The notes under the pieces are model-generated. The model saw nothing but the letters and a program-made list of their open reading frames with translations. It made no database searches and was not told the DNA's origin. The position numbers and the translations under genes were made by a program. Positions 5,090 to 11,890 of a stretch of 64,000 bases of DNA are shown piece after piece; position 1 is the first letter of the stretch, and each line of letters begins with the position of its first letter. Origin of the DNA: Acidicapsa acidisoli (GTDB lineage: Bacteria > Acidobacteriota > Terriglobia > Terriglobales > Acidobacteriaceae); the NCBI RefSeq assembly GCF_025685625.1, contig NZ_JAGSYI010000001.1, positions 1,550,001-1,614,000 of the forward strand, written 5' to 3'.

Positions 5090-6913
5090 TTACTGTTTCG
5101 CAATGGCCAGCATCTTGCGCATGAAATCGTCTTCCGGAAAGTTCCGCAGGTAAGTTTCCATTGCAGCCTGGGCTTCTTCGTAATGCTTGCCATTGATCAG
5201 GCGAAAGACCAGAGTCTTTTGCAGCGCGGCGACAAACGGGTCGAGCGTGACTGCCCTTTTGGCGGATGCGATTGCTTCCTCCACCATGCCGCTCTGGTCC
5301 TGCGCCTCCGAGAGATCGACGTAGACATTGGTCTGCAGCGGATCGAGACGCAGCGCGTGTTGCAAGTGGTCGATCGCCTGCGACCAGTCGTGGGCTTCTA
5401 GTTCGCGGTGCCCAAGCGCAGCCTGGACAATGGCATTCTCCGGATTGCTCGTTTCCAGTTCCGCAAGCGTCTTGAGCCACGAAGCGGTAAAGGACGCGGC
5501 GAACTGTGGCTTGCTTGTTCTGAGTTCCCCAAAGGCTTGCAGCAACACAAGCGCTGGCGGAGTCGCTGCCTTCGCTCCGCGCTCGCCCGCCGGATTCATG
5601 TGAATCAGGTTCGGCAAAGCCGTGGTCGTCTGTGCAAAGGCTTCGTCGGGAAACGGTTCTTCCGGGCGAACAACGATGCGGTGGTTGGTGGCGCTAGTGT
5701 GGGAGATGGCCTGGATATCACGCCGAGGCATATGGCAGCCGATACAGTTGTCCGCGGGGGACGTTGCCTGCCGAGTAGCGGCTGTTGCGGTGCAGCTTGC
5801 CGCTGTATGGCATGTGAGGCATTTTGCGTTGAAAAACGCTGGCGCTTCCGCATGTGTCGGCTCAACATGCGGATCGTGGCAGGTGATGCAGCGCAACTGT
5901 TTCGACGCCGGCAGGCTTCGCGTCGCGCGGAAGCACTTGCTCAGGCTCATCGAGTAGTAGTGTTCGACGTGGTCGTCCTGCGGCGGATTTTCGCGCGTCG
6001 GCGGGATCTGAAAGATCGAGAGGGTGTGATCCAGCGGCTCGCCAGGCCGGAAGTCCTGGTAGGTCTTGCCCGGCTGCAACACGCGCGCATCGCCGATCTG
6101 GTGGCAGGACATGCAGATATCGTCCGCAAGCTGGCCCTTGAGGCGCGCGGGATTCACAATCGTGGGATCTGAATCCGAACCCGGGCCTTTGCCGTAATCC
6201 TCGCCCTGGCCCATCGCCTGCACATGCGCGGCGCCGGGGCCATGACAGTTTTCACAGCCTACGGAAGTTTGTGTAAAGGGCGTGCTGTCGTATTTGCCGG
6301 GATAGCTCGCAACCGGCTGCGGACGTCCGCTATGGCAGTAAATGCAGCCAGGCTGGATAATGCGATTGAATCCGTAATCGCCGTTCTGGTAGCCCGGCGA
6401 AAGATTCCATTCCGCCGCTTTGGAGTAATACGAGAGCGGCGCCTGAAAGAGATAATCTCCGCGCCGCAGCAGCGCTCCGAATCCGTTTTCGCCGGTGCCG
6501 ATGATCCAGCCCAGCTCATGGGTGCTGCGGAATACTTCCTTGCCGTCTGCTCCAGATTGGTACTCGCTCTGGTAGAGCTTGCCGTTCTCGGTGCGAACTT
6601 CAAAATGGTGATCGAACTTCGCGTCGTAATATGCAGCCGGTATGGGTAGAGTCTTGAGGAAATCCGGCGTAACCGCTTTCAGCGAATGCCCCATGCTTGC
6701 GTGCGCAAAATGGTTGGCTATTTCCAGATGGCAGCGCGAGCAGGCCGCGCTGCCCACATATCCGCCATTGGCCGGCGCGCTACTCGCGGCACCGGCGCGT
6801 TTCTGCGTCTTCTGAGAAGCAGCCTGCGCCTCGGGGTTGCCCAATAAGGCCAGCATCCCAGTCAGAAAAAAGACCGTGAACCAGACGCTGCTGGATTTTG
6901 GAAGACGGAGCAT
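5090..6913 (-). CDS. Seven-haem c-type cytochrome with C-terminal TPR repeats (paralogue 2)
   Basis: This 607-residue protein is a close paralogue of the gene ending at 3097 and lies upstream of it on the same strand, with 175 bases between them. A signal segment (about residues 10-31, VWFTVFFLTGMLALLGNPEA) is followed by seven haem motifs: CSRCH, CIYCH, CENCH, CMSCH, CITCH, CLTCH and CIGCH. TPR-like repeats then follow (ALGHRELEAHDWSQAIDHLQ and onward). The conserved blocks between motifs (for example TRENPP.DDHVEHYYSM) match paralogue 1 closely, so the pair arose by duplication. The likely role is periplasmic or surface electron transfer. No terminal reductase or porin is adjacent that would define the pathway. 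Confidence 0.85.
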   Translation of the reverse strand: MLRLPKSSSVWFTVFFLTGMLALLGNPEAQAASQKTQKRAGAASSAPANGGYVGSAACSRCHLEIANHFAHASMGHSLKAVTPDFLKTLPIPAAYYDAKFDHHFEVRTENGKLYQSEYQSGADGKEVFRSTHELGWIIGTGENGFGALLRRGDYLFQAPLSYYSKAAEWNLSPGYQNGDYGFNRIIQPGCIYCHSGRPQPVASYPGKYDSTPFTQTSVGCENCHGPGAAHVQAMGQGEDYGKGPGSDSDPTIVNPARLKGQLADDICMSCHQIGDARVLQPGKTYQDFRPGEPLDHTLSIFQIPPTRENPPQDDHVEHYYSMSLSKCFRATRSLPASKQLRCITCHDPHVEPTHAEAPAFFNAKCLTCHTAASCTATAATRQATSPADNCIGCHMPRRDIQAISHTSATNHRIVVRPEEPFPDEAFAQTTTALPNLIHMNPAGERGAKAATPPALVLLQAFGELRTSKPQFAASFTASWLKTLAELETSNPENAIVQAALGHRELEAHDWSQAIDHLQHALRLDPLQTNVYVDLSEAQDQSGMVEEAIASAKRAVTLDPFVAALQKTLVFRLINGKHYEEAQAAMETYLRNFPEDDFMRKMLAIAKQ

Positions 6914-6984: not shown

Positions 6985-7740
6985 TTACTTCATGCCGTCG
7001 AGAATCGAGCCGACGATGCCGCCTACCACGCCGCCCTGCACCGATTCCTGGCGTGCCGTGGGCATGTAGTGCTGCAACTGGTGCGCTAGCCGCGAAATCG
7101 GCAGCGTCTGCAGCCAGACCCGGCCCGGACCGGTGAGTGCCGCGAGAAAGATGCCGTCTCCGCCGAAGATCATGTTCTTCAGGCCGCGAACGATGGTGAT
7201 CTGGAAGGAAACCGAGCCTTGGAACGCGCCGACGTGCCCCGGATGAACGCGCAGCGTCTCGCCCGGCGCGAGATCCTTGACCACCACTTCGCCGGAGAGC
7301 TCAAGCCACGCCGTTCCGATGCCGCCGACCTTCTGCAGCAGGAAGCCATCTCCGCCAAAGATACCCGCTCCGAGCGACTGCTGAAATCCGACGCTCAACT
7401 GGATCTGCTCCGTCGCGCACAAAAAGCCATGGCGATGGATGTAGTACTCGTAGCCCGGCTGCACCTCTACCGGCAAAATGTGCCCCGGTACACGCGTTGC
7501 AAAGGCAACCTCGCCCACGCCGCCCCATGCGCGGTATTCCGTCATGAACAGGCTACCGCCGCCAGCCACGCGCTTGAGCGCGCCAAAGAATCCGCCGCCG
7601 CCCATCATCTGCGTATGCGTCGTCATCTGGATAGCGCTGGACATCCAGGAAAGTTCGCCAGCCTCGGAGATGATGGCGTCATTCGGCTGCAACAGGAACT
7701 CAAGAACGGGCATCGTTGTGCCCACAATGCGGCTTTGCAT
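6985..7740 (-). CDS. AIM24 family protein (TIGR00266-like)
   Basis: The protein is 251 residues if translation starts at ATG 7740, which has a GAGGAG ribosome-binding site just upstream; the frame stays open further but without such support. Glycine-rich beta repeats (MMGGGGFFGALKRVAGGGSL, LGAGIFGGDGFLLQKVGGIG, MIFGGDGIFLAALTGPGRVW) are typical of the AIM24 double-stranded beta-helix fold. The function of bacterial AIM24 proteins is unknown; the yeast homologue is mitochondrial. It is transcribed divergently from the Lys/Glu-repeat / ATP-grasp cassette that begins at 7989. The shared 248-base intergenic region makes co-regulation possible, but that is inference. Confidence 0.82.
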   Translation of the reverse strand: MQSRIVGTTMPVLEFLLQPNDAIISEAGELSWMSSAIQMTTHTQMMGGGGFFGALKRVAGGGSLFMTEYRAWGGVGEVAFATRVPGHILPVEVQPGYEYYIHRHGFLCATEQIQLSVGFQQSLGAGIFGGDGFLLQKVGGIGTAWLELSGEVVVKDLAPGETLRVHPGHVGAFQGSVSFQITIVRGLKNMIFGGDGIFLAALTGPGRVWLQTLPISRLAHQLQHYMPTARQESVQGGVVGGIVGSILDGMK

Positions 7741-7988
7741 GGCGATTCTCCTCGCGCGGCGTAAGTTAGCGCCTTTCGAGGGGAAGTATACAACGCGGGC
7801 CATCTTCGCGTGGCCGGTTTCCAGCCGGTTGCGGCTTCCACTCCTCACCGCAAATGTTTTGATTCCCTTCCCGAATGAAACGTTGGCGCTTCTCCGCTCA
7901 CTACCCTCACACACGTTGCAAGCGGATTTCCCGGCCCAGCCGGCGATGCCGTCCTAGTTGCGAACCCCATCGACAAGGAGAAATCAAA

Positions 7989-8609
7989 GTGCCTACCAAA
8001 CAGTTCATTGAAAAGCAGATCGCTTTGGAGAAGGATCTGAAGCGCGAGTACAAGGAAACCAAAGAAACCAAGGACATCAAAGATAAGGACAAAGACAAGG
8101 ATAAGGACAAGGAAAAGGAAAAAGAGCACAAGGAAAAAGAGATTTTCAAGGAGATTCACAAAGAAGAGCTTCTTGAGTTTCCGCAGACTCATTATCCGGG
8201 CGTGGGCCCTGGGCCCGAGGCGACCCAGCCCGCTGTGGAAGCCAACAAGATCGTCGAAACCAAACAAGTCGCCGAGAAGTTCAGCGTCAAGGAGTTCAAG
8301 GTCGAGAAGTACGAGATCAAGGAGTACAAGCACGAAATCAAGGAATTTAAGCACGAGATTAAGGAAATCGAAAAGATTCCCATCGAAGGGAAGGTGTTGA
8401 CGGATGGACCCTACAACCCCGGCCAGGGTGGCGATCCTTACGCCCAGCGTCTTGCGGCTCTCGAAGCTACCGTGGCGCAGCTCGTCCATTTCATTCCCGC
8501 CGAGTTGCGGCCTGATCTCAGCCAGGGCGCGCTCAAGCAGGAGCCGGAGGCGACAGAGGCCACGGCCTCCAAGGCAACCGCGCCGAAAGAGAAAGACGCC
8601 AAGAAGTAA
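7989..8609 (+). CDS. Lys/Glu/Asp-repeat protein, candidate substrate of the adjacent ATP-grasp ligase
   Basis: Translation most likely begins at GTG 7989, eight bases after AAGGAG, giving 206 residues (MPTKQFIEKQIALEK). Residues 29-51 are an almost pure Lys/Asp/Glu run built from six-base DNA repeats. Residues 107-127 contain three exact-spacing heptads, KYEIKEY, KHEIKEF and KHEIKEI. A Pro/Gly spacer and an amphipathic helix (RLAALEATVAQLVHFIP, 154-170) precede a charged tail. No known domain is recognised. It is the first gene of a run with a pre-ATP-grasp-like protein and an MvdD-like ATP-grasp. Such ligases act on acidic peptides and can join Lys to Glu or Asp, so a substrate role is a reasonable but unproven inference. 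It could equally be a structural coiled-coil protein. Confidence 0.7.
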   Translation: MPTKQFIEKQIALEKDLKREYKETKETKDIKDKDKDKDKDKEKEKEHKEKEIFKEIHKEELLEFPQTHYPGVGPGPEATQPAVEANKIVETKQVAEKFSVKEFKVEKYEIKEYKHEIKEFKHEIKEIEKIPIEGKVLTDGPYNPGQGGDPYAQRLAALEATVAQLVHFIPAELRPDLSQGALKQEPEATEATASKATAPKEKDAKK

Positions 8610-8678
8610 AACCATCAACCCGTAATGGGATGGATCGGGCAGGCATCAAACCTGCCCATTCTTCCGGAGATCTTCGCC

Positions 8679-9422
8679 ATGTGGCTTGTACTGTGTTCCT
8701 CCGCAGATGCCTCGGCATTGTGGGCCTATCAGAGTCTCAAACAAATGGGGATAGCTCCGCTGGAACTGGTGACAGCGGAGAGCCTGGCTTGCGCCAGCCG
8801 ATGGGAGCATCGGCTTAACAGTACCTCGACCCAGATCAAAATCACGCTTGCGAATGGCCTTGTCATTGATGGCTCGCGAGTCCGCGGCGTCCTCAACCGC
8901 CTCCACGCGCCCTCGGAATACGCGACACAACACGCCGTTGCAGCGGACCGGGACTACGCTCAGGCGGAACTCCTTGCCTTCTATCTGAGCTGTCTGCACG
9001 CACTGCCAGGAGTGGTCGTCAACCGGCCTACGCCGATCGGCCTCTGCGGACCATGGTTCCATCCTTCGGAGTGGGCATTCCGCGCCTGCCGCGCTGGCCT
9101 GCGCACTCCCGTCTATCGCCAAAGCGCCCGCGACGATCACAGGCAGCGCTCCCATCCTGCTTCCGCTGAGAACGCGGTTATGCAAAGCGTCGTTGCCCTG
9201 CGTGGAGAGGTCTTTGGCGGTGAAGTTCCCGGCAGTGTCTCCAAAGGCTGCGGTAAGCTCGCGGCCGAAGCAGAAACCGAGATGCTGGGCATCGATTTGA
9301 GCCTGGATTCCAACGGGCAGTGGCAATTTGCGAGCGCAGCGCCGTCGCCGGATCTCAGGCTTGGCGGGCCGCGACTGGTGCAACGACTCGCGCAGATTCT
9401 TCTTCAAGGAGCACGTTCATGA
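8679..9422 (+). CDS. Pre-ATP-grasp-like partner protein of unknown function
   Basis: The start chosen is ATG 8679 (MWLVLCSSADASALWAYQSL), which follows a CCGGAGA site; the frame is open upstream but without support. The 247-residue product begins with a Rossmann-like strand-helix pattern. It contains the block GSRVRGVLNRLHAPSEYA and the stretch LHALPGVVVNRPTPIGLCGP, reminiscent of the domain that precedes ATP-grasp folds. It lacks the ATP-binding residues of the downstream enzyme. Its stop overlaps the start of the ATP-grasp gene in an ATGA quartet at 9419-9422, so the two are translationally coupled and probably act together. No firm family name can be given. Confidence 0.7.
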   Translation: MWLVLCSSADASALWAYQSLKQMGIAPLELVTAESLACASRWEHRLNSTSTQIKITLANGLVIDGSRVRGVLNRLHAPSEYATQHAVAADRDYAQAELLAFYLSCLHALPGVVVNRPTPIGLCGPWFHPSEWAFRACRAGLRTPVYRQSARDDHRQRSHPASAENAVMQSVVALRGEVFGGEVPGSVSKGCGKLAAEAETEMLGIDLSLDSNGQWQFASAAPSPDLRLGGPRLVQRLAQILLQGARS

Positions 9423-10396
9423 TTCTTATTTGTGGCATCCCTTCCGAAACACCGCTGCGCATGGTTATCAATCGCCTCGAAGAAGCGGATGCGGAGTTTG
9501 TTCTCTTCAATCAGCGGGACTTCGCCGATTGCGACATATGGTTTGAGATTGAAGATTGCGAAGTTCGCGGAGAGCTCCGCATCGGCAAGCGCACTTACAA
9601 TCTGCAGGAGTTCACCGGCGTCTACCCAAGGCTCATGGATGATCGCCTGCTGCCTGAGTTATCGAACGAACCGGAACACTCGCCTCTGCGAACTTACTGC
9701 CGCGCCTTCCACGACACACTCGTTCGCTGGATGGAGATTTCCTCCGCGCGAGTCATCAATCGCTGCGCGCCCATGGCCAGTAATTCCTCGAAGCCTTACC
9801 AGGCGCAGCTCATCCGCGAGCAGGGATTTCTTGTTCCCGAGACGCTGATCACCAACGATCCGGACCTTGTCCGCGCCTTTCGCGCCCGGCACGGACGCGT
9901 GATCTACAAATCAATCAGCGCCATTCGATCCATCGTGCAGGAACTGACCGACGGCGACGAAGAGAGACTCGAATTCATTCGCTGGTGCCCGACGCAGTTT
10001 CAGGCCTTCGTCGAAGGCATCAATCTGCGCGTGCATACCATCGGCGGAGAAGTCTTTCCCACGGCAGTGGATAGCGAAGCCACGGACTACCGCTATGCAG
10101 CCCGGCAGGCCGGCGAAGCTGCCGAGTTGCGCGAAGTAGTTCTTTCCGACGAACTCGTCGAAAAGTGCCTGCGTCTCTCCGCATCGCTCGGCCTCGAGTT
10201 CGCGGGCATCGATCTGAAGATCACCCCGGACAACGAGGTCTATTGCTTCGAAGTCAACCCCAGTCCGGCGTTTAGTTATTACGAGGCGAATGCCGGGCAG
10301 CCTATCTCGGCTGCCGTCGCGCGTTGCCTGGCAAGCGGCACGGCAACGCGCGAGGGGGCTACACGGGAAAGCTCGATGGCAGTCATGGCTGGGTAA
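9419..10396 (+). CDS. ATP-grasp peptide ligase, MvdD/RimK-like (graspetide-type)
   Basis: This 325-residue enzyme starts at ATG 9419 with AAGGA upstream. Its start overlaps the stop of the preceding gene. Features typical of microviridin-type ligases are visible in order. They are an N-terminal pre-ATP-grasp half (1-110), RVINRCAPMASNSSKPYQAQ (111-130) with Lys125, VPETLITNDP (139-148), and the nucleotide-binding Lys164 in VIYKSIS. CPTQFQAFVEG...LRVHTIGGEV (190-212), GIDLKITPD (263-271) and the metal-binding FEVNPSP (277-283) complete the fold. ISAAVARCL closes it, as in MvdD. The family uses ATP to activate a carboxylate and form an ester or amide bond on a peptide. The substrate may be the Lys/Glu-repeat protein encoded at 7989. 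No transporter or protease is in the cluster. Confidence 0.85.
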   Translation: MILICGIPSETPLRMVINRLEEADAEFVLFNQRDFADCDIWFEIEDCEVRGELRIGKRTYNLQEFTGVYPRLMDDRLLPELSNEPEHSPLRTYCRAFHDTLVRWMEISSARVINRCAPMASNSSKPYQAQLIREQGFLVPETLITNDPDLVRAFRARHGRVIYKSISAIRSIVQELTDGDEERLEFIRWCPTQFQAFVEGINLRVHTIGGEVFPTAVDSEATDYRYAARQAGEAAELREVVLSDELVEKCLRLSASLGLEFAGIDLKITPDNEVYCFEVNPSPAFSYYEANAGQPISAAVARCLASGTATREGATRESSMAVMAG

Positions 10397-10572: not shown

Positions 10573-11049
10573 ATGCCAGAAGACGCACAGCTAAGACAGC
10601 ACCTACTAAGCCTGCTCAACGACGGCAACGCGCACGTGACCTTCGAGACGGCCATCGAGGGCCTGCCACCGGAAAAGCGTGGAATTCGGCCCGACGGAGC
10701 GGATCACTCTCCCTGGGAGCTGCTCGAACACCTGCGCATCGCCCAGTGGGATATCCTCGATTTCTCGCGCAACTCGAACTACAAGGCGCATAAATGGCCC
10801 GATGACTACTGGCCTGCAACCCCCGCGCCTCCAAGCGATGCCGCCTGGGACGAGAGCGTGAAAGCCTTTCGCAAAGACCTCAAGACGTTCTGCGAGTTGG
10901 TCGAAGACAAATCCACCGATCTGTTTGCCAAAATCCCCCACGGCGACGGTCAAACTATCCTGCGAGAGGCGCTGTTGGTCGCTGACCACAATGCTTATCA
11001 CGTCGGTCAACTGGTGCTGGTGCGCCGGCTGCTTGGCGCTTGGGGATAG
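10573..11049 (+). CDS. DinB-like (DinB_2 superfamily) four-helix protein
   Basis: This 158-residue protein has the DinB-type helical-bundle pattern. The metal-binding histidines sit in HSPWELLEHLRIAQWDIL (about residues 48-65) and in the C-terminal LVADHNAYHVGQLVLVRR (about 136-153). In the wider superfamily such proteins are metal-dependent thiol S-transferases or damage-inducible proteins; the substrate here is unknown. A weak ribosome-binding site (AATAGGAG) precedes the ATG. The 176 bases between the ATP-grasp gene and this one contain no other feature I can support. Confidence 0.8.
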   Translation: MPEDAQLRQHLLSLLNDGNAHVTFETAIEGLPPEKRGIRPDGADHSPWELLEHLRIAQWDILDFSRNSNYKAHKWPDDYWPATPAPPSDAAWDESVKAFRKDLKTFCELVEDKSTDLFAKIPHGDGQTILREALLVADHNAYHVGQLVLVRRLLGAWG

Positions 11050-11152: not shown

Positions 11153-11890
11153 ATGACGCGCAGGCGCACAAACAAGCGAATCAAGAGAAACGGCACAAGT
11201 GGTATTTCCACCCAAATTGAACTGTTTCATTTCAATCCTCCTATCTCTTTCGAGGCACGGGATGGCCGAGGCAGGACGCTAAAAAGCGCAGAGGAAATTG
11301 CAGTACACAATCGTGCTGCTGCGTTGCTGCGATTTGTTGTTAAGAAACATCGGGCAAGCCGCCTCCACTACGATTTCAGGCTTGAGTGGAATGGTGTGTT
11401 GATGAGTTGGGCGGTGCCGGAAGGGCCTAGTTGTTGCCCCAGTGTTCGCTGTGAGGCCATAGAAGTTGCAGACCATAAGATAAAAAACATCGCGTTTGAA
11501 GGCGTGTTCCCGGACGGTATGCCTGGCGCGGGCCCTACGATGCCGTGGGACTTAGGGTGGTGGGAGCCTTTACCGGGATATCTGGACGTCGACGATTGCT
11601 TTCGCAACGGGTGCCTCAAATTTACGTTGCGCGGCGAGAAATTAAAGGGCAACTGGATGCTCCTCCGGCGGCCCGGCAGTTGCAAAGGTGGTCGAAGGCA
11701 GGTTTGGGATCTCGTGAAGTTGCCCGATTCATTTGCGAGAAGTATGGACGCACCAGCCATCGTGGACGAACAGCCGAACAGCATTCTTTCCGGAAAGAGC
11801 CTGGAAGAAGTGGAACGTGAAGGAAAAGCAGGCAGGACAGGCAGGAAAAGACGCAGATCGGAAACAACGCTATTCAAAATGGATGAGTGA
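11153..11890 (+). CDS. Stand-alone LigD-type 3'-phosphoesterase domain protein
   Basis: The core (about residues 60-185) matches the phosphoesterase domain that LigD uses to trim 3' ends during non-homologous end joining. Visible blocks are FVVKKHRASRLHYDFRLEW, a GVLMSWAVPEGPS block, EVADHKIKNIAFEGVFPDG and LKFTLRGEKLKGNWMLLRR. The catalytic-type His of LHYDFRLE and the His of ADHK are kept. Unlike LigD, no ligase or polymerase domain is attached and no Ku gene is adjacent. Two stretches differ from the usual consensus: GPSCCPSV, and GAGPTMPWD in place of a GGTVMVWDRG-like block. The 245-residue length adds a basic N-terminus and a charged tail. Base use seems more AT-rich than in neighbouring genes. 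End trimming in repair is likely but unproven. Confidence 0.8.
   Translation: MTRRRTNKRIKRNGTSGISTQIELFHFNPPISFEARDGRGRTLKSAEEIAVHNRAAALLRFVVKKHRASRLHYDFRLEWNGVLMSWAVPEGPSCCPSVRCEAIEVADHKIKNIAFEGVFPDGMPGAGPTMPWDLGWWEPLPGYLDVDDCFRNGCLKFTLRGEKLKGNWMLLRRPGSCKGGRRQVWDLVKLPDSFARSMDAPAIVDEQPNSILSGKSLEEVEREGKAGRTGRKRRRSETTLFKMDE

Follow-up and report, generated by a model that had tools for sequence, protein, structure and literature searches.

A three-gene cassette of Acidicapsa acidisoli as a candidate tag-guided protein-tail modification system of graspetide type

Precursors of graspetides usually follow a common pattern, being short, with an N-terminal leader and a C-terminal core, and with Thr, Ser or Lys as donors and Asp or Glu as acceptors. 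Larger precursors are treated in PMC13097080, which describes corallotide, a system in which a large precursor bears Lys-Asp lactams within its KxxxD repeats and a partner protein activates the synthetase; there, CorB, CorC and CorD bind CorA through its N-terminal part, and the groups numbered 34, 35 and 41 include long repeat precursors as well as large precursors with copper amine oxidase. Two ATP-grasp branches of Makarova et al. (2022; PMC8939145), numbered 7 and 8, travel with peptidases of unrelated families; no precursor was found for either, and the authors suggest that the peptidases cut other proteins into peptides. In branch 8 a truncated, inactive ATP-grasp protein typically lies beside a full one. 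Here, a cassette from Acidicapsa acidisoli is described, located in a stretch of 64,000 nucleotides (contig NZ_JAGSYI010000001.1, positions 1,550,001 to 1,614,000; hereafter the window, numbered from its first letter), in which the gene of a Lys/Glu/Asp-rich protein with a short tag is followed by those of a partner protein and a graspetide-type ATP-grasp ligase. The explanation that we favour, with a probability of roughly 0.6, is a tag-guided protein-tail modification system of graspetide type, in which ligase and partner as a pair would recognise the tag and make Lys-Asp/Glu isopeptide bonds in the tail.

The three genes are present and form one conserved system, all lying on the forward strand in the order repeat protein, partner, ligase. 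Their coordinates agree with those of the initial annotation of the window, as does the ATGA (9419-9422) common to genes 2 and 3:

7975 to 7980, forward strand: ribosome-binding site AAGGAG, read directly from the sequence, 8 nucleotides before the GTG start of gene 1
7989 to 8609, forward strand: gene 1 (GTG start), Lys/Glu/Asp-rich tagged protein of 206 amino acids, proposed substrate, relatives of which adjoin the ligase elsewhere
8679 to 9422, forward strand: gene 2, partner of 247 amino acids, with a predicted graspetide-synthetase fold without the ATP-grasp core (profile alignment, AlphaFold2 model)
9419 to 10396, forward strand: gene 3, graspetide-type ATP-grasp ligase of 325 amino acids (family profiles, PDB relatives)

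None of the three proteins has a match in PADLOC, and a reading as a defence system was dropped for that reason. Gene 1 also has no match in Pfam or NCBIfam, and its best conserved feature is the tag, F-I-x4-R-P, near its C-terminus. The initial annotation overlooked this tag and its interpretation as a whole was borne out in part; it had taken the Lys/Glu repeat as the main feature of the protein, whereas the repeat is a tail module and the feature common to the family is the tag. The elements of gene 1 are as follows:

8022 to 8171, forward strand: first Lys/Glu/Asp block, about residues 12-61, proposed modified core from its composition and spacing (predicted helix 4-63, modest confidence)
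8232 to 8372, forward strand: second Lys/Glu block, residues 82-128, proposed modified core, with a similar block in relatives (predicted helix 82-128, low confidence)
8436 to 8480, forward strand: short predicted helix before the tag, residues 150-164, the RLAALEATVAQL region (tail alignment, structure model)
8490 to 8513, forward strand: tag FIPAELRP, proposed recognition sequence, its F, I, R and P being kept in all 27 aligned C-terminal tails

The system was followed over 32 loci (given L numbers where they need to be told apart), comprising the window, 18 loci from a ligase scan of genome contigs (Acidobacteriota, Pseudomonadota, Myxococcota, Chloroflexota, Actinomycetota), two from the IMG/VR collection (L039, L040) and 11 new ones with flanks; the pairs L019/L057, L023/L025, L027/L040 and L020/L021 are close relatives and so are not independent. 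When all open frames of at least 100 amino acids were scanned in six frames across these loci, the whole window included (437,302 residues), the tag gave 29 matches, one each in 29 loci and every one adjoining the enzyme pair, compared with about 1.8 expected by composition, the pattern itself having been learned from these same loci. FIPAELRP is the sole match in such frames of the window (64 kb). A further tag lies on a 75-amino-acid open frame of L022 that is cut by the contig end, so that 30 of the 32 loci are tagged in all. The contig of one untagged locus, L021, begins at the partner, with no usable start codon before base 48. The other, L028, has no tag in its open frames and its ligase carries K125R, K164R, D265E and E278D; this pair looks like a decaying or repurposed copy. 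It is a second ligase/partner pair, near L026 on the same contig of Tessaracoccus sp. OS52.

The tagged protein is encoded directly upstream of the partner, with a gap of -4 to 110 bases (17 loci measured). In 27 of the 30 tagged proteins the tag lies in the C-terminal part, 11 to 56 residues from the end except in L062 (91) and L064 (123). In the remaining three (L060, L066, L067) it is N-terminal and on a gene downstream of the ligase, so tag position and gene order change together in this sample; L066 encodes a Lys/Glu-repeat protein, and L060 and L067 encode PqqD-domain proteins. By eye, L060 also has a 2-oxoglutarate-oxygenase-like gene and an ABC transporter ATPase downstream. Across the 27 aligned C-terminal tails the only invariant residues are F, I, R and P of the tag. 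For the tail profile (A3), rows were picked with F[IVL]x(2-6)RP, so the invariance of F, R and P in it is partly built in; the exact I and the four-residue spacing are not, and the open-frame scan is independent of that choice of rows.

Searched with A3, 25 of 29 ligase genomes gave exactly one match, adjoining the ligase, the misses being G160 (cut contig L021) and the three genomes with an N-terminal tag. Among 297 Acidobacteriota genomes, tails with an E-value of 8.7e-11 or better were found only in G000, G490 and G592, which are the three ligase genomes, and eight others scored 4.9e-4 or weaker, taken as noise. The A3 and ligase searches were taken as the same genome draw (same count, same leading genomes), and only the absence from the other Acidobacteriota genomes is informative here since A3 contains the tails of the three that matched. 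A search of 212 Acidobacteriota genomes with the partner gave three matches at E ≤ 0.01, namely the ligase genomes G000 and G490, and G418 (5e-11); the third ligase genome, G592, was not among them, its presence in that draw not being shown. The G418 region (L082, contig C159, 60500-71500) encodes two full-length microviridin-like ATP-grasps, together with what looks by eye like an ABC transporter of C39 type; its 11 kb contain neither the tag nor a Lys/Glu tail, and it is read as an ordinary microviridin-like locus. Co-occurrence of repeat protein, partner and ligase, as envisaged in the initial annotation, is thus upheld: a partner-type frame joins the ligase at each of the 19 loci checked, those of the window and of the contig scan, and a tagged protein lies beside the pair in 30 of 32. 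The refuting outcome named in that annotation, a repeat protein missing beside most pairs, did not occur. The link of the tagged protein to the enzymes as their substrate is strong.

Gene 1 has 38 Lys and 34 Glu codons, and its repeats are kept in related proteins. A 40-residue stretch with at least 50% Lys, Glu and Asp (57 to 97%) occurs in 20 of the 30 tagged proteins, compared with at most 33% in all 36 ligases and partners. With windows taken as the most charged 40 residues on Lys, Arg, Glu and Asp, so that Lys was not favoured, Lys:Arg was 313:62 in the 30 tagged proteins versus 16:199 in the 36 enzymes, and Ser plus Thr was 4.3% versus 9.0%; windows chosen on Lys, Glu and Asp gave 270:13 in 20 proteins, a choice which favoured Lys. 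This strong Lys preference argues for chemistry on Lys side chains. As to spacing, Lys followed by Asp or Glu exceeded shuffles at +1 (1.95-fold), +4 (1.39), +5 (1.19) and +7 (1.43) and fell below them at +2, +3 and +6, and Asp or Glu followed by Lys was in excess at +1 (1.18), +2 (1.31) and +5 (1.62), where the segments had been chosen for charge and the shuffles keep composition but not that choice. These values cover 27 of a set of 28 proteins, which has neither L060 nor L067 and from which L039 was dropped by the charge filter. The Lys/Glu repeats noted in the initial annotation are real, but by eye a heptad pattern fits a single block of the protein in the window, and the strongest pooled signal is a three-residue K-[D/E]-x tendency, a period which could come partly from repeat expansion. 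When the first 45 residues were scanned by simple hydropathy in 28 tagged proteins, no convincing signal peptide was seen; stop-to-stop frames were used for this, so that some N-termini (L024, L025, L026, L027, L039, L061, L063) lie upstream of the true start.

Gene 3 is, on sequence grounds, a graspetide-type ATP-grasp ligase. In Pfam it matches the RimK-type ATP-grasp (26.1 bits, cut-off 21), while in NCBIfam it scores best with TIGR04187 (GRASP_SAV_5884; 131.9 bits, cut-off 350), followed by MvdD (TIGR04184; 93.4, cut-off 475), MvdC (TIGR04185; 89.9, cut-off 425) and the RimK family (TIGR00768; 42.1, cut-off 143.4), none of these cut-offs being reached. The description as MvdD-like given initially is thus right at superfamily level but not at family level, and the blocks quoted with it (CPTQFQ, LRVHTIGGEV, FEVNPSP, pISAAVA) are all present. 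The best PDB relative is PsnB (E 4.8e-40), the six top ones being PsnB, MdnB, MdnC, AMdnB, CdnC and PruB (E 4.8e-40 to 4.9e-28), with RimK far behind these macrocyclases (E 2.2e-8). The ligase sequence thus lies nearest to known macrocyclases and has the ATP- and metal-site residues and the DFR-like motif that mark graspetide synthetases in the broad sense. The roles of the four ATP- and metal-site features below are putative and are placed onto the ligase from the ATP-grasp superfamily description in the available part of PMC4431377, and DFR is given as a required motif of graspetide synthetases in that of PMC13097080; conservation was scored on 18 sequences, L021 being left out (ligase alignment A1; the partner alignment A2 has the same sample):

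9791 to 9793, forward strand: Lys125, putative linker lysine at the ATP-grasp site, conserved in 17 of 18 ligases and replaced by R in L028
9908 to 9910, forward strand: Lys164, putative second ATP lysine, K in 17 of 18 and R in L028
10085 to 10093, forward strand: DYR (residues 223-225), in the alignment at the place of the PsnB motif DFR, unchanged in all 18
10211 to 10213, forward strand: Asp265, putative metal-site aspartate, D in 17 of 18 and E in L028
10250 to 10258, forward strand: putative ExN metal-site motif (Glu278-Val-Asn280), E in 17 of the 18 ligases and N in all of them

Gene 2 has no Pfam match, and its sole NCBIfam match is insignificant (E 0.067) and to the N-terminal part of TIGR04187. 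Aligned with the ligase by hhalign, it matches end to end (E 1.2e-11, 228 columns) with most of the middle of the ligase unmatched. Its AlphaFold2 model, with a predicted local distance difference test score (pLDDT) of 90, superposes on MdnC 5ig9 (VIA) with a Z-score of 19.4 and a root-mean-square deviation of 3.1 over 238 residues, and on MdnB, CdnC, PruB and PsnB with Z-scores of 17 to 19, RimK being lower at 14 to 16. These matches make the partner a relative of graspetide synthetases that has lost the ATP-grasp core, so that the coupled gene noted initially stands and can be further described as a truncated relative of the ligase, presumably dead given the absence of the ATP core. In all 19 of the window and contig loci, a frame of partner type shares four bases (ATGA or GTGA) with the beginning of the ligase gene, an overlap that suggests coupled synthesis of ligase and partner. 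The distant loci L060, L066 and L067 have a longer frame upstream of the ligase, and the four-base overlap was not seen in L066 and L067.

Stand-alone tails occur in the window and in nine relatives (alignment A4); elsewhere the tail follows a variety of domains. These are a subtilase (S8) in L024, L026, L027 and L040; an M43 peptidase in L061; DUF6519, according to its Pfam entry a family of unknown function, with or without Big_2 in L023, L025 and L039 (the first two also with DUF4815 and Big_2 matches); a galactose-oxidase-like protein in L064 (Pfam GO-like E set 55.7 bits, cut-off 25; GlxA model 206.5 bits, below its cut-off of 800); a kelch protein in L062; and an NBR1-type Ig domain in L065. 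In L018, L019, L020, L057 and L063 the tail follows domains without a match over cut-off, the S32 peptidase match of L018 being below it, and a PDB sequence search with L065 and the N-terminal part of L018 gave weak matches only. Judged by eye, L018 looks trypsin-like, L020 EXORDIUM-like and L065 tyrosinase-like, likenesses that carry no weight as evidence. A tree of 29 ligases (without L021, L040 and L062) calls for two or more changes on well-supported branches to account for the stand-alone tails, and likewise for the DUF6519 fusions; this suggests re-assortment of the tail among its cargo.

Compared with described systems, the ligase resembles PsnB, MdnB/MdnC and the TIGR04187-type synthetases in fold, sequence family, ATP-site residues and the DFR-like motif. 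It differs from the TIGR04184, TIGR04185 and TIGR04187 families in scoring below their curated cut-offs, and from PsnB and MdnB/MdnC in lying beside a truncated relative and in having as its proposed substrate a long tail or tagged protein rather than a short leader-core peptide. The usual precursor pattern is not followed, as the window protein has 206 amino acids, the tag is C-terminal in 27 of 30 proteins and Ser and Thr are low in the tails. The nearest precedent is corallotide, as described in the part of PMC13097080 available, with its repeat precursor, Lys-Asp lactams and partner protein. The synthetases of corallotide and rosaritide need or are activated by a partner protein, which in those systems is an oxygenase or PpiC-like, whereas here the proposed partner is a truncated ligase; groups 34, 35 and 41 of that paper may contain some of the present loci. 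According to the accessible part of PMC13003496, an engineered C-terminal leader of fuscimiditide still directs its graspetide synthetase; unlike that leader, the C-terminal position here is natural.

The loci also resemble branch 8 of Makarova et al., as far as the accessible text of PMC8939145 goes, with a truncated ATP-grasp, probably inactive given its absent core, beside a full one, and with unrelated peptidase families, which are found at the S8 and M43 loci named above and not in the window. In contrast to the proposal made there, the peptidase itself bears the tag and tail here, which suggests that it is the substrate. The features agree with those of branch 8 and a candidate precursor can be offered, the two sets being likened by description only. 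A full-text search for mentions of ATP-grasps as truncated, inactive, degenerate or pseudo-enzymes gave PMC8939145 only. Among the papers listed in further searches, judged by titles and abstract openings, none describes the arrangement, most subscription papers being outside the coverage.

In the mechanism proposed, the ligase and its relative without an ATP core would act as a pair and bind the F-I-x4-R-P tag, which lies near the C-terminus like a 'follower' rather than an N-terminal leader. The ligase would use ATP to activate Asp/Glu carboxylates of the adjacent Lys/Asp/Glu tail by phosphorylation, and neighbouring Lys amines would attack these to give many side-chain isopeptide bonds along it. 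The sequences themselves show the enzyme family, the truncation of the partner, the tag, the co-occurrence and the Lys bias and spacing of the tail, from which tag binding, the part played by the partner, the isopeptide chemistry and the biological use are inferred. The product would be a stapled, stiff and protease-resistant tail, stand-alone in the organism of the window, while on peptidases and oxidases elsewhere the modified tail may be an anchor or spacer; an anchor, a spacer or a protective rod each fits the fusions seen. A more general version, held tentatively and at somewhat less than even odds, is that the pair reads a portable tag at either end of unrelated proteins and turns disordered tails into isopeptide-laced rods.

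RimK modifies ribosomal protein S6 by adding amino acids, and the ligase could in a similar manner attach amino acids such as Glu to the tail, either on Lys/Glu side chains or at the C-terminus, without cross-links. The RimK-type Pfam match over its cut-off and the richness of the tail in acceptor side chains are in keeping with this. However, the ligase is much nearer to the macrocyclases than to RimK in sequence, the DFR-like motif is invariant, and glutamylation alone would not need the non-random alternation of donors and acceptors found in the tail, so that this reading is considered unlikely. Characterised graspetide synthetases act mostly within one chain, and no common further gene was noticed at the loci, where no systematic search for one was made; both count against the cross-linking of tails between molecules, by which tagged proteins would polymerise or attach to an envelope partner. 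Such linking, to which we give the same low odds, is nonetheless favoured by the long and multivalent nature of the tails, by their fusion in some cases to enzymes that might gain from anchoring and by the ability of an engineered graspetide synthetase system to cross-link assembled protein chains (PMC12291112, available part). Still less probable is a tail that serves only as a charged solubility region or spacer and stays unmodified, with the ligase acting on the tag region or on a substrate encoded elsewhere. This would agree with the tag being more widespread than the rich tail (30 of 32 loci versus 20 of 30 tagged proteins), but a merely charged tail would need no such Lys bias as is found in the charged windows, where Lys exceeds Arg by about 5 to 1 (313:62), compared with 114:851 in whole ligases and partners, or Arg by about 7 to 1.

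Several observations weigh against a tag-guided isopeptide modification of the tail. Ten of the 30 tagged proteins lack the rich 40-residue stretch, one of them (L022) being a cut fragment, five reaching 40-47% and four (L060, L067, L039, L064) being no richer than the enzymes, so the tail is perhaps not the modified part everywhere. Lys does not exceed Arg in five of the 30, being equal in L024 and L026 and lower in L060, L067 and L039. The spacing singles out no one linkage, as Lys to Asp/Glu at +5 and Asp/Glu to Lys are also enriched, and the window protein is modelled as long helices with low confidence (pLDDT 60). The PqqD-domain proteins, two of the three with an N-terminal tag, could be helpers and not substrates. 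Finally, no transporter or maturation protease was seen adjoining the window genes, as the initial annotation had stated; as regards the protease this is true of the window, whereas elsewhere in the family tails are fused behind peptidases.

The system occurs rarely and in scattered genomes. At E ≤ 1e-55, profile searches found it in 5 of 195 genomes from the phylum of Myxococcus L019, 3 of 297 Acidobacteriota, 3 of 345 from the class of Tessaracoccus L026 and 4 of 301 from the phylum of Chloroflexi L020, the central genome being included each time; among 150 genomes from the order of Caulobacter L023 only the two already known matched. Only the best candidates per genome were scored in the large searches (e.g. 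the best 21 of 47), so absences are not absolute. In the order of the window (150 genomes), six genomes match at E ≤ 1e-10, of which that of the window and one other (71% identity) are close and the remaining four have 24-30% identity. Plasmids and phages were considered as vehicles and rejected. Searching a plasmid collection by tblastn gave no match to the partner, and the ligase matched 59 plasmid records, with none above 31% identity among the 40 matches listed, and 10 phage records at about 23-31%. The two IMG/VR loci look like bacterial relatives, the tail of L040 being almost that of Tessaracoccus L027.

In the window the cassette is flanked on the reverse strand by genes for a multihaem cytochrome with tetratricopeptide repeats (5090-6913) and an AIM24/TIGR00266 protein (6985-7743), and on the forward strand by genes for a DinB-like protein (10573-11049) and a stand-alone LigD 3′-phosphoesterase domain (11153-11890). 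By eye, a DinB-like gene also adjoins the ligase in L003 (2481-2957), in the opposite orientation.

What this arrangement contributes is a short, putatively portable tag, a candidate natural C-terminal recognition sequence for graspetide synthetases and a truncated-ligase partner. It offers a directly testable answer to an open question printed in the available text of PMC8939145, that of the precursors of the peptidase-associated ATP-grasp branches. Provided that the tail is indeed stapled, other proteins could be given the tag and so acquire stiff, protease-resistant tails. Should the more general version be true, the system would modify folded enzymes instead of making peptide natural products; in the 'precursor-less' ATP-grasp branches, the peptidases would then be its substrates rather than its processing enzymes.

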